Source: Planctomycetia bacterium
Lineage (GTDB): Bacteria > Planctomycetota > Planctomycetia > Pirellulales > Thermoguttaceae
Reading direction: 5' to 3'
Assembly: GCA_026401055.1 (NCBI GenBank)
Contig: JAPLNP010000431.1
Coordinates: forward strand, 1 to 38,794
Length of the DNA stretch: 38,794 nt
This document shows, piece by piece, positions 1,586-11,517 of this stretch. Both the position numbers and the translations under genes were made by a program. Position 1 is the stretch's first letter. Each line of letters begins with the position of its first letter. The notes under the pieces are model-generated. The model saw nothing but the letters and a program-made list of their open reading frames with translations, was not told the DNA's origin and did no database searches.

Positions 1586-1662
1586 TGGAACACCGTCGGC
1601 GTGGTTCTTCACTCGCGTGAACTCTTTTCGAGAAGGGGACGTGTCATGTCCAGAAAGCAGTT
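1586..1662 (+). repeat. 77-bp exact direct repeat, copy 1 (leader plus start codon)
   Basis: These 77 bases recur without a change at 2689-2765, offset by 1103 bases. They include 60 bases of untranslated leader, the ribosome-binding site and the first codons. The genes themselves have diverged clearly, so the leader is better conserved than the coding sequence. Confidence 0.9.
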
Positions 1663-2548
1663 CGTCTTTGCGCCCGTGGCGTTGGCCGCGGCGGTGTTGT
1701 TGCTCCTGGGAGCGGATCCGTCGTTCGCTCAGTTCGGCCAGAAAAAGGACTCCGCCGACGCGGAGAAGACCTCGAAAGAACAGGCGATCGAAAAGGCACT
1801 GGGTTCGCCGACGACGCTGGAGTTCAAGGAAACGCCGCTGTCGGAAGTAGTCGACTATCTCAAGACTACACACAAGATCGAAATTCAGATCGATCAAAGG
1901 GCCCTGGACGACGTGGGCATCGACTCGGCTACGCCGGTGACGCGGAACATCAAGGGCGTCTCGTTGCGTTCGGCGTTGGACCTGATGCTGCGCGACCTGG
2001 ACATGACCTACATCATCCGCAACGAGGTGCTGCTGCTCACCACGCGCGAGAAGACGCAAGAAAGGGAGATGCTGCTCACGAAAGTCTACGACGTGGCCGA
2101 TCTTGTGGTCTTCCGCGACGAAGCCGGCCAACGGCGGGAGGACTACGACCAGTTGGTGGAAACGATCACCAAGACGATTGCCCCGCAAAGCTGGGACGAG
2201 GTCGGCGCCCCCGGCTCTATCGCAGCCGGGACCTACGGCAGCGCCAAGGTCCTCGTCGTTTCGCAGACCGACGAAACTCATCGCCAGATCGCCAAGCTCC
2301 TGGAAGAGATTCGCAAGGTCGCCCAGAAAAACCCGTCCGAGGAGCCGCCGTTTCACAGTCGCCACGGCGGCATGAGGATGGGCATGGGCGGGATGATGGG
2401 TGGCGGCATGGGTGCGCCTGGGATGCAAGCGCCCGGCATGGGCGGAATGGGTGGCGGAATGATGGGACCCGGAATGGGTGCGCCCGGCATGCCCGGCATG
2501 GGCGCCAAGCCCGCCGCCACGCCGCAGCCGAAGAAGAACGACCCGTGA
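1646..2548 (+). CDS. Exported STN/secretin-N-like domain protein with Met/Gly-rich tail, copy 1
   Basis: A 300-residue exported protein. It has a signal peptide (about residues 1-27, ending SFAQ), then an STN-like module (about 50-135) with the pattern 'TPLSEVVDYL', 'DDVGID', 'SLRSALDLMLRDL'. A second alpha/beta module (about 140-230) resembles secretin N-domains, and the tail from about 235 is low-complexity and rich in Met, Gly and Pro (MGMGG, GAPGM). STN modules are known from secretin and TonB-receptor N-termini. Free-standing exported versions occur in planctomycetes, where their role is not established. The start was chosen at ATG 1646 because GAGAAGGGG lies about 8 bases upstream and the signal peptide begins there; the frame stays open further upstream. 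The next gene is a diverged duplicate. No secretin pore domain is present, so it is not itself a secretin. Confidence 0.8.
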   Translation: MSRKQFVFAPVALAAAVLLLLGADPSFAQFGQKKDSADAEKTSKEQAIEKALGSPTTLEFKETPLSEVVDYLKTTHKIEIQIDQRALDDVGIDSATPVTRNIKGVSLRSALDLMLRDLDMTYIIRNEVLLLTTREKTQEREMLLTKVYDVADLVVFRDEAGQRREDYDQLVETITKTIAPQSWDEVGAPGSIAAGTYGSAKVLVVSQTDETHRQIAKLLEEIRKVAQKNPSEEPPFHSRHGGMRMGMGGMMGGGMGAPGMQAPGMGGMGGGMMGPGMGAPGMPGMGAKPAATPQPKKNDP

Positions 2549-2560
2549 TCCGTCTCGGTC

Positions 2561-2641
2561 GGTGGCACGCCCTGAAAGGGCGTGGTTGAAGTGACGCCGA
2601 GGTCTACCACGCCCTTCGCCCGGGGCTCAGGGACGTGCCAT
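2561..2641. repeat. Nested double-hairpin repeat (GGTGGCACG family), copy A
   Basis: The outer arms are GGTGGCACGCCCTGA and an imperfect reverse complement ending GACGTGCCATCC. The inner arms are GGGCGTGGT and ACCACGCCC, a perfect 9-bp pair. The same nested design recurs at 16596-16674, in reduced form at 37744-37780, and as a fragment at 24695-24730. It sits between the two STN-like genes and could attenuate read-through. Confidence 0.75.
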
Positions 2642-2688
2642 CCGCCCAGCGAACCCGATAGACTCAACCTCAGTCGTCGCCGTCGGCG

Positions 2689-2765
2689 TGGAACACCGTC
2701 GGCGTGGTTCTTCACTCGCGTGAACTCTTTTCGAGAAGGGGACGTGTCATGTCCAGAAAGCAGTT
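2689..2765 (+). repeat. 77-bp exact direct repeat, copy 2
   Basis: Identical to 1586-1662, and again ends just inside the coding region. No convincing promoter was seen just upstream, so this copy may depend on read-through from copy 1 or on signals inside the repeat. Confidence 0.9.
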
Positions 2766-3756
2766 TGTGTTTGTGCCCGCGGCGCTCGCCGCCGCGGCGA
2801 TTCTGTTCGTGGGAGCGGATCGGGCGTTCGGCCAGAAGAAGGGTTCGGCCGAGCAGGAGAAACTCTCGGCCGAACAGCGGATCGAGAAGGCCCTGAACGA
2901 GCCGACCAAGCTGGAATTCACCGAAACACCGCTGTCGGACGTGGTCGATTATCTCAAAAGTCTGCACGGGATCGAAATCCAGATCGATCGAAAGGCTCTG
3001 GACGACGTGGGCATCGACACGCAGACGCCGGTGACGCACAGCCTGACAGGCATCTCGCTGCGTTCGGTGTTGAACCTGATGCTGCGCGACTTGAACCTGA
3101 CCTACATGGTCGAGAACGAGGTGCTGCTGATTACCACGCCCGACGCAAGCGAAGAACGGTTCACGACTCGCGTTTACCCGGTGGGCGACCTGGTCGTCTA
3201 CCGCGACGAAGCCGGTCAACGATGGGAGGACTACGGGCCGCTTATCGAAGCGATCGAAAGCTCGATCGTGCCGGCGGGAAGTCATGACGGTCCCACGGGC
3301 AGGATCAGCGGCGGCACGTTCGGGGCGGCCAAGGTTCTGGTCGTCACGGAACCCTACGAAGTGCATCGCCACATCGCGAAGCTGTTGGAAGAGATTCGCG
3401 AACTCGCCCGGCAAAATCCGTCCGAGGAGCCGCCGCTTCGCAGTCGCCACGGCATGGGAAGGAACGTGCCCGGCATGATGGCTCCCGGCGCGCAGACGCC
3501 GGGGATGGCGGCACCGCGCGTGAAGACGCCGATGAAGACCGACAAGCAAAGCGGCACGGGTGTGCCCGGGACGGCGCCTGGCATGGGCATGCCCGGCATG
3601 ATGGGTCCCGGCACGGGCGCGCCCGCAACGGCGGCGCCCGCAACGGCGGCGTCCGAAACGGCGGCGCCCGCAACGGCGGCGCCCGGCATGGGCACGCCGC
3701 GCAAGCCGGCCGTCAAGCCGCGGCCGGCGGAGCAGGACGACCCGTTCCGCGACTGA
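2749..3756 (+). CDS. Exported STN/secretin-N-like domain protein, copy 2
   Basis: A 335-residue paralogue of the preceding gene. It has a signal peptide (about residues 1-24, ending RAFG), the STN-like module with 'TPLSDVVDYLKS' and 'SLRSVLNLMLRDL', and the second alpha/beta module. The two products are alike throughout the folded part. They differ most in the tail: this one is longer and has runs of TAAPA-type repeats after a short Met/Gly-rich stretch. The start at ATG 2749 is fixed by the duplicated ribosome-binding site and the matching N-terminus SRKQFVF. The tail repeats come from GC-rich tandem codons, which suggests expansion by slippage. The function is unknown; an envelope or periplasmic interaction role is inferred from the domain type and signal peptide. 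Confidence 0.8.
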   Translation: MSRKQFVFVPAALAAAAILFVGADRAFGQKKGSAEQEKLSAEQRIEKALNEPTKLEFTETPLSDVVDYLKSLHGIEIQIDRKALDDVGIDTQTPVTHSLTGISLRSVLNLMLRDLNLTYMVENEVLLITTPDASEERFTTRVYPVGDLVVYRDEAGQRWEDYGPLIEAIESSIVPAGSHDGPTGRISGGTFGAAKVLVVTEPYEVHRHIAKLLEEIRELARQNPSEEPPLRSRHGMGRNVPGMMAPGAQTPGMAAPRVKTPMKTDKQSGTGVPGTAPGMGMPGMMGPGTGAPATAAPATAASETAAPATAAPGMGTPRKPAVKPRPAEQDDPFRD

Positions 3757-4031: not shown

Positions 4032-5189
4032 ATGCCCCGAGCCAATCAGTTTCGGCACCAGGCCTACACCGCTTCGCCGCCCGCCGCGCCGCACTGCCTG
4101 GTCGTGCCCGGGCCGCACCCGCCGGTCGGCTCCGAGGAGTTCCAGCGGCGGATGGATCGGGTCGGGGCGGCACTGGATTCGGCCGGAGTGGCCGCGATCT
4201 ATCTCGCCCACGGCACCTTCGTCGGGCCCGACGCCCTGGGCGTTCTGGCGGGGCTCGCCCGCGTGTTTCCCAAGGCCGGCACGGCGGTCCGCCGCGTGAT
4301 CAAGCGGATCGTCGACAAGATCACCGGCGAGGTGGGCAACTACACCGGCCAATTCGCCCAGTGCTTCGAGTCGGCCATCAATCGGCCCGACCGACCGCGC
4401 ATCCCCGTCCGGCGGTTCGCCTGGTCCAGCGAAAACCATCATCTCGGCCGCGCCGACGGCGCGGTGCGACTGATCGACGAACTGGCCGCCCGCCGGCTCC
4501 CGCCGGGCAAGCGACTGTTGCTCTGGGGACACAGCCACGCCGGCAACGTCTTCGCGCTGGTGACCAATCTGCTCGCGGGCGATCGCCAGGCGGTCGACGA
4601 GTTCTTCAAGGCGACCGAGGTTTACTACACGTGGCCGATCGTCGGCTGCGTTGACATCCCCGTCTGGACGCGCGTCCGGCGACGGCTCCAGGAGGCGGAC
4701 GTCCCGCTTCGCCGCGTGCCGCTGGACATGGTCACGTTCGGCACGCCGATCCGTTACGGCTGGGACTCGGCCGGCTACGCCCGGCTCTTGCACTTCATCA
4801 ACCACCGCCCCGCCGACGGGCTTCCCGAATACCGGGCGCCGTTTCCGCCCAAGCTCGACGACGTGCTCTCGGCGGCCGACGGCGACTACATCCAGCAATT
4901 GGGCATCGCCGGCACGAACGTCATGCCGAGCATCTTCTCCTGGCGGAGTTGGCTGGCCGACAACCGACTGAACGAGCTTCTGCAACACGATCTCGTCCGC
5001 CAGAAGCCGACCGACCGTTTCCAGGCCGGCGCGATCGTGCCCGACGAAGGCACGACACTGCTGGTCGACTACGGTCCGCTCGAAGGCGGCGTCGCGCAGC
5101 ACCTCGCCGGCCACGCCGTCTACACCAGCAGCCAATGGCTCCTCTACCACGCCGAAGAAACCGTCCGCCGCTTCTACGCCGCCGAATAA
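4032..5189 (+). CDS. Alpha/beta-hydrolase-like protein
   Basis: A 385-residue protein with no signal peptide. The motif WGHSHAGN (about residue 158) has the GxSxG form of a serine-hydrolase nucleophile elbow, preceded by a hydrophobic strand (KRLLLWG). An early segment (IYLAHGTFVG, about residue 55) looks like the first strand and oxyanion region, and GHAVYTSS near the end could supply the histidine. The acid residue cannot be assigned with confidence. ATG 4032 was preferred over GTG 3993 because the extra 13 residues carry no conserved feature. Lipase or esterase activity is inferred from fold motifs only. The stop codon lies inside the left arm of a long palindrome shared with the convergent neighbour. 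Confidence 0.7.
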   Translation: MPRANQFRHQAYTASPPAAPHCLVVPGPHPPVGSEEFQRRMDRVGAALDSAGVAAIYLAHGTFVGPDALGVLAGLARVFPKAGTAVRRVIKRIVDKITGEVGNYTGQFAQCFESAINRPDRPRIPVRRFAWSSENHHLGRADGAVRLIDELAARRLPPGKRLLLWGHSHAGNVFALVTNLLAGDRQAVDEFFKATEVYYTWPIVGCVDIPVWTRVRRRLQEADVPLRRVPLDMVTFGTPIRYGWDSAGYARLLHFINHRPADGLPEYRAPFPPKLDDVLSAADGDYIQQLGIAGTNVMPSIFSWRSWLADNRLNELLQHDLVRQKPTDRFQAGAIVPDEGTTLLVDYGPLEGGVAQHLAGHAVYTSSQWLLYHAEETVRRFYAAE

Positions 5190-5258
5190 AGGGGTCGGGA
5201 GTCTTTGTTTTGGCACGACCGACTTCCTAGGCAAACGAAGACTCCCGACCCCTTTATT
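5185..5258. terminator. Long palindrome between convergent genes, possible bidirectional terminator
   Basis: The left arm AATAAAGGGGTCGGGAGTC continues TTTGTTT and matches the right arm at about 25 of 26 positions. The arm ends carry the stop codons of both convergent genes. A degenerate relative of the arm sequence forms the loop of the hairpin at 11516-11548. It is probably a mobile palindromic repeat that now acts as a 3' end. Confidence 0.65.
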
Positions 5259-6609
5259 CCCCCACCACGGCGAACACCCTCGCGCCGTCGCCCAGACGGA
5301 CGCGAATCGAGCACTCTTCGCTCAGCGAGGCGGCCGTCCAAGGCAGTGGGATGGACTTGCCCTCGATGCCTTCGATGCGATGAGAATCGGCGTCGCTGAC
5401 CGGGTTCCCCGCGCCGTCGCAGAGCGTCGTTTCAATCCATCCTTGCGAGGCGTCGGCGTCCAGAGCGATGACGCCGCGCGGTCGGGCGAAGGTGCGAGTC
5501 CTGAACGTTCCCGGGCCGGTCACAGCAACCATGCGATCCCGGTCATAGGCGACCGTCACCATCGCGCCGTCCTTCCAGGTGGCAAAGTGCATCCGGCCGT
5601 CGATCGTGAACGGATCCGCGTAGGACCAGAAGCCAAGATCCGTGTCGCGATACGGGCGCTGCCACGCACGACCGTCCTCGCTGACGGCGAGCTCGTGCCG
5701 GAGGATGGCGCTGTGCTTGCCGGGTTTCGCCGGGTCGGCATAATACTTCATAATCAGCCCGGCGTAGCCATGGCCGTAACGAAAGACCTTGAACAGGTAG
5801 AACTCGGCCTCGCGGGCGTCACGGGCGTCGGGCACCAAGAGCGGCTGTTGAGGAGACCACGCCGCGAGGTCCGGCGACGTCCGCAGCGTGATGACGCGCC
5901 GCAGCTTGTCGAGGTTGTCCGGAAACGGCTTGTCGGGCCAGGGCTCCAGCGCGGTCTGGTACACGATGTACTCGTCTCCAATTCGGGTCAGGCAGAAAGC
6001 ATCGTTGTGTTCGGTGAACACGGTGCCCGTCAGCTTCTCCCACGTCTTGCCGTCGCGCGATCGGGCGCGCATCGCGCCGGCCTCGCCCGTCGGGGCCGGC
6101 TGGTCCCAGTAGAGCATTTCCAGGGCGTTGTCGACCTGGACGATCTGGAAGACGTTGAATCCGCCCCAGGTGGGCTTGTGGGGCGATCGGGTCATGACGA
6201 CGTTGTTCGGCCCGCCCCAAGCCGGCGACTCGGGGCGGATCGACGGCAACGTCCACCGCCCGCCGCGGATTTCCCCAAGGCACAGCGTGCGCTGGTCCAT
6301 GTAATCAGCTTCACCCTTGTCGACGCGCTGATACCAGAGTTGCACGGCGCCGTCGGCGAGCGTCCGCGAGGCAACAGGCGAGTACCACAGCGACGGCCGC
6401 CGCGAGTCCTTGTCCACGAGCACCATGCCCGGCCGCGGAATCTGCGCCTCCATCCGCACGCCCGCGGCCTCGACGACGTCCGAGGGCAGCAGCATCGGCA
6501 TGGGCAGCGTTCGCGCGACCGCGCCGGCCGGAAGACAAGCCGCGATGGCCGCAAGCACCGCCGTCGCGGACAACCCGCCAACGAGGACTCGCGTGAATCG
6601 ATGGTTCAT
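5254..6609 (-). CDS. Exported five-bladed beta-propeller protein, glycosidase-like
   Basis: A 451-residue protein with a signal peptide (about residues 1-32, hydrophobic core LSATAVLAAIAACLPAGAVA). The body has repeated 'sample of trade' features of GH32/GH43/GH130-like propellers: WYSPVAS, LWYQRVD, MRARSRDGKTWEK, ALEMLYWDQ, HELAVSEDGRAWQRP and WSYADPFTIDG. Such folds carry three acidic catalytic residues near blade strands, but none can be fixed here by eye. The start at ATG 6609 follows GGAGGAGG; an upstream GTG at 6657 has no such site. Family knowledge suggests binding or cleavage of a sugar polymer, and nearby sulfatases fit polysaccharide breakdown. A non-catalytic propeller is possible. 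Confidence 0.65.
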   Translation of the reverse strand: MNHRFTRVLVGGLSATAVLAAIAACLPAGAVARTLPMPMLLPSDVVEAAGVRMEAQIPRPGMVLVDKDSRRPSLWYSPVASRTLADGAVQLWYQRVDKGEADYMDQRTLCLGEIRGGRWTLPSIRPESPAWGGPNNVVMTRSPHKPTWGGFNVFQIVQVDNALEMLYWDQPAPTGEAGAMRARSRDGKTWEKLTGTVFTEHNDAFCLTRIGDEYIVYQTALEPWPDKPFPDNLDKLRRVITLRTSPDLAAWSPQQPLLVPDARDAREAEFYLFKVFRYGHGYAGLIMKYYADPAKPGKHSAILRHELAVSEDGRAWQRPYRDTDLGFWSYADPFTIDGRMHFATWKDGAMVTVAYDRDRMVAVTGPGTFRTRTFARPRGVIALDADASQGWIETTLCDGAGNPVSDADSHRIEGIEGKSIPLPWTAASLSEECSIRVRLGDGARVFAVVGE

Positions 6610-9827: not shown

Positions 9828-11517
9828 GTGCATAGTCGCCTTTCGCTCCGCGATTGTCGCCTTTCGCTCCGCGATTGTCGCCTTTCGCTCCGCGAAAGTA
9901 GCGGTCGTCTGGCCGGCCGCCGTTGGCATCGCCGTCGTGTTCGCCGTAATCTTAGGCTCAGCCGCCCGTGCCGCCGAGGGGCCGCCGAACATCCTGATCA
10001 TCCTGGCCGACGACATGGGTTTCTCGGACCTGGGCTGCTACGGGGGCGAGATCGAGACGCCGAACCTCGATACGCTGGCGGCCAATGGCTTGCGATTCAC
10101 GCAGTTCTACAACACGGCCCGGTGCTGGCCGACCCGCTCCTGCATCCTGACCGGCTACTACGCTCAGCAGATCCGCATGGACCCGCCATCCGGGCGGCTG
10201 CCGACCTGGGCCCGCGTGCTGCCGCACTATTTGAAGCCGCTGGGCTACCGCTGCTATCATTCCGGGAAGTGGCACCTCCTCGGCGCGCCGAAGCCCGTGG
10301 CCGACGGCGGTTTCGACCGCTCGTACTGGTTCCAGGACTGGGACCGCTATTTCTCGCCGGCCCAGCATTTCGAGGACGACCGGCAGTTGCCGCCGGTCAA
10401 GCCCGACAGCGGCTACTACGCGACCACCGCCTTTGCCGACCACGCGATCAAGTGCCTCCAGGATCACGCGAAGAACCATCCGGGCAAGCCGTTTTTCTCG
10501 TACCTGGCGTTCATCTCGCCGCATTTCCCGCTGCACGCCTTGCCGGAGGACATCGCGCGCTATCGCGACCGCTACCTTGTCGGCTGGGACGTCGTCCGCG
10601 AGTGCCGCTGGCAGCGGCTCCGCGAGATGGGCATCGTCAACTGCGACCTCTCGAAGCTCGACGCCAAGCTCACGCCGCGATACTTCAAGCAGGAATTGCT
10701 GGCGACCGTCGGGCCGGGCGAAATCGAGCACGCCGTCGCGTGGAACACCCTGACCGACGAGCAGCGGACATTCCAGGCCACCAAAATGGCCATTCACGCG
10801 GCGATGGTCGATCGCATGGATCGCGAGATCGGCCGCGTGCTCGATCAACTCCGCGTGATGGGGGCCTTTGACAATACGCTGATCTTCTTCCTCTCCGACA
10901 ACGGCGCGGACGCCTCGCTCCTCGTGCGCGGCGAGGGCCACGACCGCGACGCACCGCCCGGCTCGTGGCGGTCGTTCCTGTGCCTCGGCCCCGGCTGGGC
11001 CAGCGCCAGCAACGCGCCGTTTCGCCGGCACAAAATCTGGGTCAACGAGGGCGGCATCTCCACGCCGCTGGTGGTCCACTGGCCCAAGGGAATCGCCGCC
11101 CGAGGCGAACTGCGCCACGACGTGGGCCACGTGATCGACTTCGTGCCGACGCTACTGGAGGTGGCCGGCGCGAAGCCCGCGAGCCCCGCCGGCGACGCCA
11201 ACGCGCCGCCCCTGCCCGGCCGAAGCCTCGTGCCCGCGCTGGCTCGCGACGGCAGCGTCAGCCGGGACGTGCTGTTCTTCCACCACGAGGGGAACCGCGC
11301 GCTCCGGATGGGCGACTGGAAGCTGGTCTCCGCCCGCGAAGACCGGGACGCCTGGGAGCTTTTCGATCTCGCCACCGACCGCTGCGAACAGATCAATCTG
11401 GCCGCCCAACAGCCGGACCTGGTGCGCAGAATGGAGGCCAAGTGGATCGAGTTGGAGAAGGAATACCGCCACTCGGCCGGTGAACCGCAACCGCGGGAGT
11501 CGCGGCAGGATAGATGA
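9814..11517 (+). CDS. Exported sulfatase 3 with a tandem heptapeptide before its signal peptide
   Basis: A 567-residue sulfatase. It has NILIILADDMGFSD, the modification site CWPTR (cysteine at residue 104), GKWHLLG and FFLSDNGAD. Translation starts at ATG 9814 behind GGGGGAG and overlaps the previous gene by 14 bases. The N-terminus is odd: residues 8-28 are three near-identical copies of VAFRSAI, encoded by 21-bp tandem repeats. The hydrophobic signal core (VVWPAAVGIAVVFAVILG) follows and ends ARAAEG. The repeat lengthens and adds positive charge to the n-region of the signal peptide. No better downstream start was seen. The other domains are intact, so the enzyme is probably functional. 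Confidence 0.88.
   Translation: MWCPKCIVAFRSAIVAFRSAIVAFRSAKVAVVWPAAVGIAVVFAVILGSAARAAEGPPNILIILADDMGFSDLGCYGGEIETPNLDTLAANGLRFTQFYNTARCWPTRSCILTGYYAQQIRMDPPSGRLPTWARVLPHYLKPLGYRCYHSGKWHLLGAPKPVADGGFDRSYWFQDWDRYFSPAQHFEDDRQLPPVKPDSGYYATTAFADHAIKCLQDHAKNHPGKPFFSYLAFISPHFPLHALPEDIARYRDRYLVGWDVVRECRWQRLREMGIVNCDLSKLDAKLTPRYFKQELLATVGPGEIEHAVAWNTLTDEQRTFQATKMAIHAAMVDRMDREIGRVLDQLRVMGAFDNTLIFFLSDNGADASLLVRGEGHDRDAPPGSWRSFLCLGPGWASASNAPFRRHKIWVNEGGISTPLVVHWPKGIAARGELRHDVGHVIDFVPTLLEVAGAKPASPAGDANAPPLPGRSLVPALARDGSVSRDVLFFHHEGNRALRMGDWKLVSAREDRDAWELFDLATDRCEQINLAAQQPDLVRRMEAKWIELEKEYRHSAGEPQPRESRQDR
9834..9901 (+). repeat. Three 21-bp tandem repeats in the start of sulfatase 3
   Basis: The unit GTCGCCTTTCGCTCCGCGATT occurs in three copies, and the last ends GCGAAAG. 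Within the unit, TTTCGC and GCGAAA can pair. Because the unit is 21 bases, expansion or loss keeps the reading frame. Confidence 0.85.

Follow-up and report, generated by a model that had tools for sequence, protein, structure and literature searches.

The cis-regulatory families of Rfam 15 are conserved structured elements in the 5' leaders of homologous genes, and the leader described here is likewise such an element. Leaders targeted by CsrA/RsmA, such as that of glgC, resemble ours in having a GGA in the apical loop of a hairpin and a second GGA at the ribosome site; a loop site combined with a second site over the Shine-Dalgarno sequence is described in PMC7652899 as the glgC arrangement of CsrA. 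Our leader differs from these in that its loop carries (C/U)GGAAC and not ANGGA, and in having a longer, GC-rich stem and a larger loop. The Rhodopirellula-1 motif, named in the main text of Weinberg 2010 (PMC2864571), is presented there as an ambiguous candidate RNA, probably cis-regulatory, of Proteobacteria and Planctomycetes, and carries no Rfam accession in the table of that paper. Our literature search found no description of the leader, and this 2010 candidate can be set beside it by description only; the two could be the same element. Rfam 15 gave no match at gathering score anywhere in the stretch of DNA analysed here, and its weak matches fell off the leader (three at E <= 10 within positions 1450-2900, and four at E <= 1 in a set of 12 loci). 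As to the genes behind the leader, the described proteins closest to them are the secretins GspD, PilQ and EscC, whose N0-N1 periplasmic domains resemble the predicted fold of the first gene's product.

The locus belongs to a planctomycete genome of the family Thermoguttaceae (assembly GCA_026401055.1; 6.68 Mb in 673 contigs, 87% complete), and the whole stretch that was analysed, 38,794 nucleotides of contig JAPLNP010000431.1, is called the window below. The first-pass annotation had claimed that two tandem STN-like genes share 77 identical bases over leader and start. This is confirmed: an exact direct repeat of 77 nt (1586-1662 = 2689-2765, offset 1103) spans 60 nucleotides of leader and the first 17 of the gene. 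The features of the two copies are as follows.

1533-1561, + strand: promoter-like boxes of copy 1 (TTGCTT, 17 nt, TATGTT), consensus match only
1576-1600, + strand: hairpin of copy 1, GCCGGCGG / CTTGGAACA / CCGTCGGC, 8 bp with one G-U, from pairing and covariation
1586-1662, + strand: 77-nt tract identical to copy 2, from direct-repeat comparison
1587-1591, + strand: invariant loop GGAAC of copy 1
1630-1639, + strand: conserved ribosome-site sequence GAGAAGGGGA of copy 1, from the cross-genus leader alignment
1646-2548, + strand: STN gene copy 1, 300 aa, with a signal-peptide-like start, N0-N1 secretin-like domains and a Gly/Met-rich tail
2635-2664, + strand: promoter-like boxes of copy 2 (GTGCCA, 18 nt, TAGACT), consensus match only
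2679-2703, + strand: hairpin of copy 2, GCCGTCGG / CGTGGAACA / CCGTCGGC, 7 bp with one T-T mismatch
2689-2765, + strand: 77-nt tract identical to copy 1, from direct-repeat comparison
2690-2694, + strand: invariant loop GGAAC of copy 2
2733-2742, + strand: conserved ribosome-site sequence GAGAAGGGGA of copy 2, from the cross-genus leader alignment
2749-3756, + strand: STN gene copy 2, 335 aa

As had also been proposed, the leader is much better conserved than the genes: aligned over 293 codons, these are 74% identical in nucleotides (63% in amino acids) and 66% identical at 102 four-fold sites. The chance of an identical run of 77 nt is about 1e-6 per kb at a site identity of 0.78, 4e-5 per kb at 0.82 and 0.006 at 0.88. 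Similarity between the copies begins just 3' of the -10 boxes (about 1561/2664), and none was seen further upstream. When the leader was sought elsewhere in its own genome by BLAST, the two window sites were the only ones at E <= 0.001; at E <= 10 there were 21 extra matches, all of them short.

Both proteins have a start that resembles a signal peptide by eye, a folded domain of about 200 residues and a Gly/Met-rich tail, and thus look exported. In Pfam, the two genes gave STN and FecR_C matches below threshold only; for STN (PF07660) the curated cut-off of 28.4 bits was reached by neither copy, with 16.3 bits for copy 1 and no match for copy 2. Despite this score, the fold of copy 1 is predicted to be N0-N1-like: an AlphaFold2 model (mean pLDDT 85, alignment of 44 rows) matched the N0-N1 periplasmic domains of secretins in Foldseek (EscC 1.3e-5, PilQ 1.5e-5, GspD 7e-5). 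Unlike its secretin matches, to which it is 8-18% identical, the 300-aa protein ends in a Gly/Met-rich stretch and shows no pore domain; it is too short to hold one as well. STN family members occur in all 60 genomes searched, the source genome included, often several in tandem. In many relatives STN matches also fall inside long ORFs, about 1,400 aa in length. One such frame, of 1412 aa (L223, contig C274 of the source genome), has a VWA-like stretch recognised by eye, a Gly/Met-rich middle and an STN stretch 66-68% identical to copy 1.

Like structured cis-regulatory RNAs, the leader is found before homologous genes in more than one genus. A search of 119 genomes of the family found it before STN genes in three other genera, and before one non-STN gene in one of these three (L076; product of 778 aa with a weak, sub-threshold esterase match). 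The other-genus STN proteins are 34-44% identical to those of the window, and the leader aligns across genera over its whole length, with GGAAC invariant and the ribosome site near-invariant. In a comparison of seven genes, picked because their leaders match, all 21 pairs showed higher nucleotide identity in the leader than in the coding sequence, where four-fold sites were 0.33-0.66 identical.

A typical leader consists, in this order, of a sigma70-like promoter, the hairpin, a variable spacer, a ribosome site (GAGAAGGGGA or weaker) and ATG; in the nine strong leaders the start is mostly ATGTC. The stem has 8-9 bp in strong leaders and about 8 in typical members, and the loop, in 14 hairpins, has 8-11 nt and ends in (C/U)GGAAC plus 0-2 nt. 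One stem position is unpaired in each of copy 2, G117, G026b and G033, while G005 (L093) carries an inserted inner hairpin, and G022a and G022b have internal loops. The promoter pattern is mostly TTGC.., 16-18 nt, TAGACT/TAGAAT, ending 22-27 nt 5' of GGAAC. Its boxes are clear at 13 of 17 sites, scored with a template derived from these same sites, and weak or absent at G010, G026b, G005 and G068; in a rerun with generic TTGACA/TATAAT, the sigma70 score 19-29 nt upstream averaged 7.65 at the 17 sites against 5.37 (sd 1.0) at random anchors. An N-terminal coding extension was considered, as the leader is open in frame, but the GGAAC-to-ATG lengths differ by 1-5 nt between genera; they span 55-60 nt across the nine leaders and are not in steps of three, so that the leader is taken as non-coding. 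At L091, about 1570-1660, a possible short signal-peptide-like frame with a GTG start was seen by eye between the hairpin and the STN start, overlapping the latter.

RNAalifold found the hairpin unaided in the leader alignment. Among 12 sequences (G005, G022a and G022b excluded, as well as G015b and G054, which MAFFT had placed out of register), 93.8% of 96 stem cells are paired and three pairs have changed on both sides, these changes being confined to the two outer pairs and the innermost pair. The covariation score of this set is 0.297 against 0.149 in shuffled alignments and was reached by 0 of 500 shuffles; in the nine-sequence alignment 10 of 500 reached it. The mere count of doubly changed pairs is not beyond chance with nine sequences (matched by 276 of 500 shuffles) and is in weak excess with twelve (28 of 500). 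When the partner column is displaced by 1-3 positions, 24-77% of cells pair, against 93-94% in register. In a set of 14 hairpins, again without G005, G022a and G022b and this time with G015b and G054, seven of 108 paired cells are G-U, and the loop is fixed on variable arms; as these arms were selected for pairing, the permutation test on them is biased. The stem is kept by compensatory change in these small sets of sequences. The first-pass annotation had proposed to fold the 77-base leader and to test it for covariation. The hairpin covaries, and its stretch alone folds better than shuffles (mean z of -2.0, with one of 17 positive), but the whole leader folds no better than they do (z of 1.0 to 1.2 for 63-77 nt; -0.15 and -0.36 for 136 nt). 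An additional spacer hairpin, which several leaders seemed by eye to allow, was dropped at a mean z of -0.06 against shuffles for 17 spacers. Nor do we claim the stem that RNAalifold placed at columns 80-94, between the ribosome site and the start, which consists mostly of unvarying GGAC/GUCC and is broken in G033.

The hairpin goes with STN genes. A GGAAC-loop hairpin lies upstream of 16 of 53 STN genes (kept from 82 STN ORFs by at least 34% identity, a good start and 180 nt of upstream sequence) and of none of 103 other ORFs at the same loci. Ten of these come from leader-chosen loci, where 10 of 10 follows from the selection; at loci chosen by protein only, the count is 6 of 43 against 0 of 103 (Fisher p 5e-4), or five without the doubtful L226 (p 2e-3), and the remaining 37 of 43 upstreams are without such a hairpin. 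In the tandem arrays of G015, G022, G005 and G054 it was found before the first gene only, and in the tandem pairs of the window and of G026 before both copies. L223 and its relative L226, of G033, have a hairpin-like GGAAC stretch, but it reads as the end of an upstream gene, and neither is claimed as a member.

Searches with covariance models and patterns extended this picture. R1, built from nine leaders, matched strongly (E < 1e-17) those nine only and more weakly, among others, G068 (E 1.8e-6) and G022 (E 0.015), before genes that are STN or secretin-N1-like. R3, a promoter-plus-hairpin model run on 396 genomes of the order, returned ten strong matches, all of them training sites, and many weak ones; among 23 inspected weak matches with a new locus, 21 were chance-like by eye, and L283 and L291 had the full signature. 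R1 and R3 scored 35 and 15 candidates per genome, so that weak members may be missed. L283 belongs to another family (f7), and its gene is STN (blastp 1.7e-24 to a window copy), which independently confirms the association of hairpin and STN; L291, of the same family, precedes a gene that is thioredoxin-like by eye and is a single case. A wider regulon in the source genome was considered and rejected: R2 gave 21 matches at E <= 10, two of which are the window leaders, and the other 19, judged chance by eye, comprise nine without GGAAC and ten that have it but no promoter box and gene start in place; R2 scored 150 of 25,103 first-look candidates in this 87%-complete genome, and weak members may be missed. 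The pattern TAGANT plus (C/U)GGAAC plus ribosome site matched 26 times in 45 chosen genomes against 65 in a backward control, and the hairpin-bearing ones among the 26 are seven known leaders (six before STN genes) and one chance case in coding sequence. In a collection of 84,980 species, a pattern scan gave 31 matches in 30 stretches. In six of these stretches, seven matches both score 6.5 or more for the hairpin and have a correctly placed ATG; all seven are in Pirellulales MAGs named Zod_Metabat, which we read from the isolate names as coming from Zodletone spring; two of the other 24 reach 6.5, without the ATG. Not counted are L117 and L094, model matches without GGAAC, and L297, where a GGAAC hairpin follows TAGAAT but lies inside a long ORF and is taken as chance.

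The hairpin, its covariation, the invariant loop, its position and the STN association are all computed here. Recurrence, stem covariation, the fixed loop and the place behind promoter-like boxes support the earlier suggestion of selection on the leader as an mRNA regulatory element, and the leader is likely to be a cis-regulatory leader RNA without a known match, the function of which we infer. Our preferred reading, to which we give a probability of about 0.62, is that the leader is a 5' untranslated region with a cis-acting RNA hairpin, the loop of which is read by a factor, with gene conversion added on the spacer. Both mRNAs would have the shared leader as their 5' untranslated region, and transcription would start 5-9 nt 3' of the -10 box, placing the hairpin almost at the mRNA 5' end. 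The stem could vary in sequence provided that pairing is preserved, while the loop would keep (C/U)GGAAC; this loop would be read in trans by a factor, most likely a protein that binds RNA, whose binding would tune translation or decay of mRNAs for exported secretin-like proteins. That the element acts as RNA rather than DNA, where the transcript starts, that a factor binds and in which direction control runs is what we infer. The loop is a putative binding site for a trans-acting factor because its sequence is fixed while the stem beneath it varies freely, and because the hairpin probably lies at the 5' end of the mRNA.

One candidate for such a factor is CsrA itself, which would bind the loop GGA and the ribosome-site GGA and block translation. 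It is encoded in 119 of 119 family genomes, with four matches in the source genome, and the leader hairpins do present a GGA in the loop. We nevertheless consider this unlikely: the ANGGA core occurs in only 6 of 18 loops (one row of the loop table, G227, is one base out of register, which leaves the count of A at that place unaffected), and the AAC that follows GG is invariant, although CsrA does not require it. Moreover, CsrA SELEX sites are described in PMC7652899 as mostly six-base loops with at most four contiguous pairs, whereas our loops have 8-11 nt on 8-bp GC-rich stems, and CsrA is universal in the family while the hairpin element is not. Since the loops misfit the CsrA consensus, we would not commit to CsrA as the factor. 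A plain 5' stabilising stem-loop, slowing mRNA decay with no specific ligand, would suit a hairpin near the inferred 5' end before genes for exported proteins, but would give no reason for the loop to keep (C/U)GGAAC unchanged, and we hold it to be decidedly unlikely.

The remaining alternatives do without a regulatory RNA. Recent gene conversion or duplication alone, acting on a leader without function, would explain why, by BLAST and by the models, the leader is found at these two genes only in the source genome and why the spacer is identical only in the window pair; the same leader, however, stands with a covarying stem before STN genes of other genera, and this makes the explanation quite improbable. 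Roughly +5 to +30 is a classic place for an inverted repeat that serves as operator, and the element might thus be a DNA site, 3' of the promoter, for a dimeric repressor. Yet its arms vary and covary, G-U is tolerated and the asymmetric centre is fixed; as a fixed loop with variable arms is the reverse of what is expected of an operator, we regard this as very improbable. GGAAC is also a common core of ECF -35 boxes, so that it could belong to an ECF sigma factor promoter, but this is barely credible: no conserved -10 box was found 16-17 nt after GGAAC in the aligned leaders, no box 16-30 nt 3' of it is invariant (no position there has the same base in more than 11 of 17 sites), a sigma70-type promoter already lies upstream of most sites, and the flanking arms pair.

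The preferred reading, a hairpin acting in the mRNA, still leaves the perfect identity of the window pair to be explained. Two possible objections had been named beforehand. That the leader varies freely in relatives is not so, as hairpin, GGAAC and ribosome site are kept. Recent local conversion as the sole cause is insufficient because other genera share the leader, but as an added cause for the spacer it is likely. From genus to genus the 29-nt spacer differs, the window pair being the only one in which it is identical, and the leaders of the G026 tandem pair are only 62% identical. As the spacer is unconserved between genera, its identity needs a further cause: purifying selection probably accounts for the hairpin, loop and ribosome site and local gene conversion for the spacer, and either local homogenisation or a constraint specific to this pair probably adds to its identity.

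With its fixed loop and its link to a large family of exported secretin-like proteins, the short hairpin offers a handle on post-transcriptional control in planctomycetes and is a possible bait for its RNA-binding protein. We would tentatively entertain, while giving it less than even odds, a planctomycete-specific post-transcriptional switch in which an undescribed RNA-binding protein or a specialised CsrA paralogue reads the (C/U)GGAAC hairpin at the 5' end of N0-N1 mRNAs; if true, an entire class of surface or secretion proteins would be under its control.

Some further observations were made along the way. CsrA is usually present in one or two copies, and in the 119 family genomes it is often multicopy, from the four matches in the source genome to as many as 18 in G064. 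L076 is preceded, at a distance of about 5 kb, by a csrA gene (G026:C154, 15844-15999 and 20718), and another csrA gene lies near a VWA-like/STN gene (G033:C107, 4815-4970). G054 has, close by a further STN gene, two matches to the Acido-Lenti-1 RNA family that stay below threshold and lie on opposite strands (L100, 5667-5711 and 5823-5867). In the window, a 40-nt exact direct repeat with an offset of 21, a short tandem repeat, occupies 9835-9874, and a 27-nt inverted repeat, 96% complementary with arms 22 nt apart, lies between two genes at 5184-5259 and is probably a transcription terminator.
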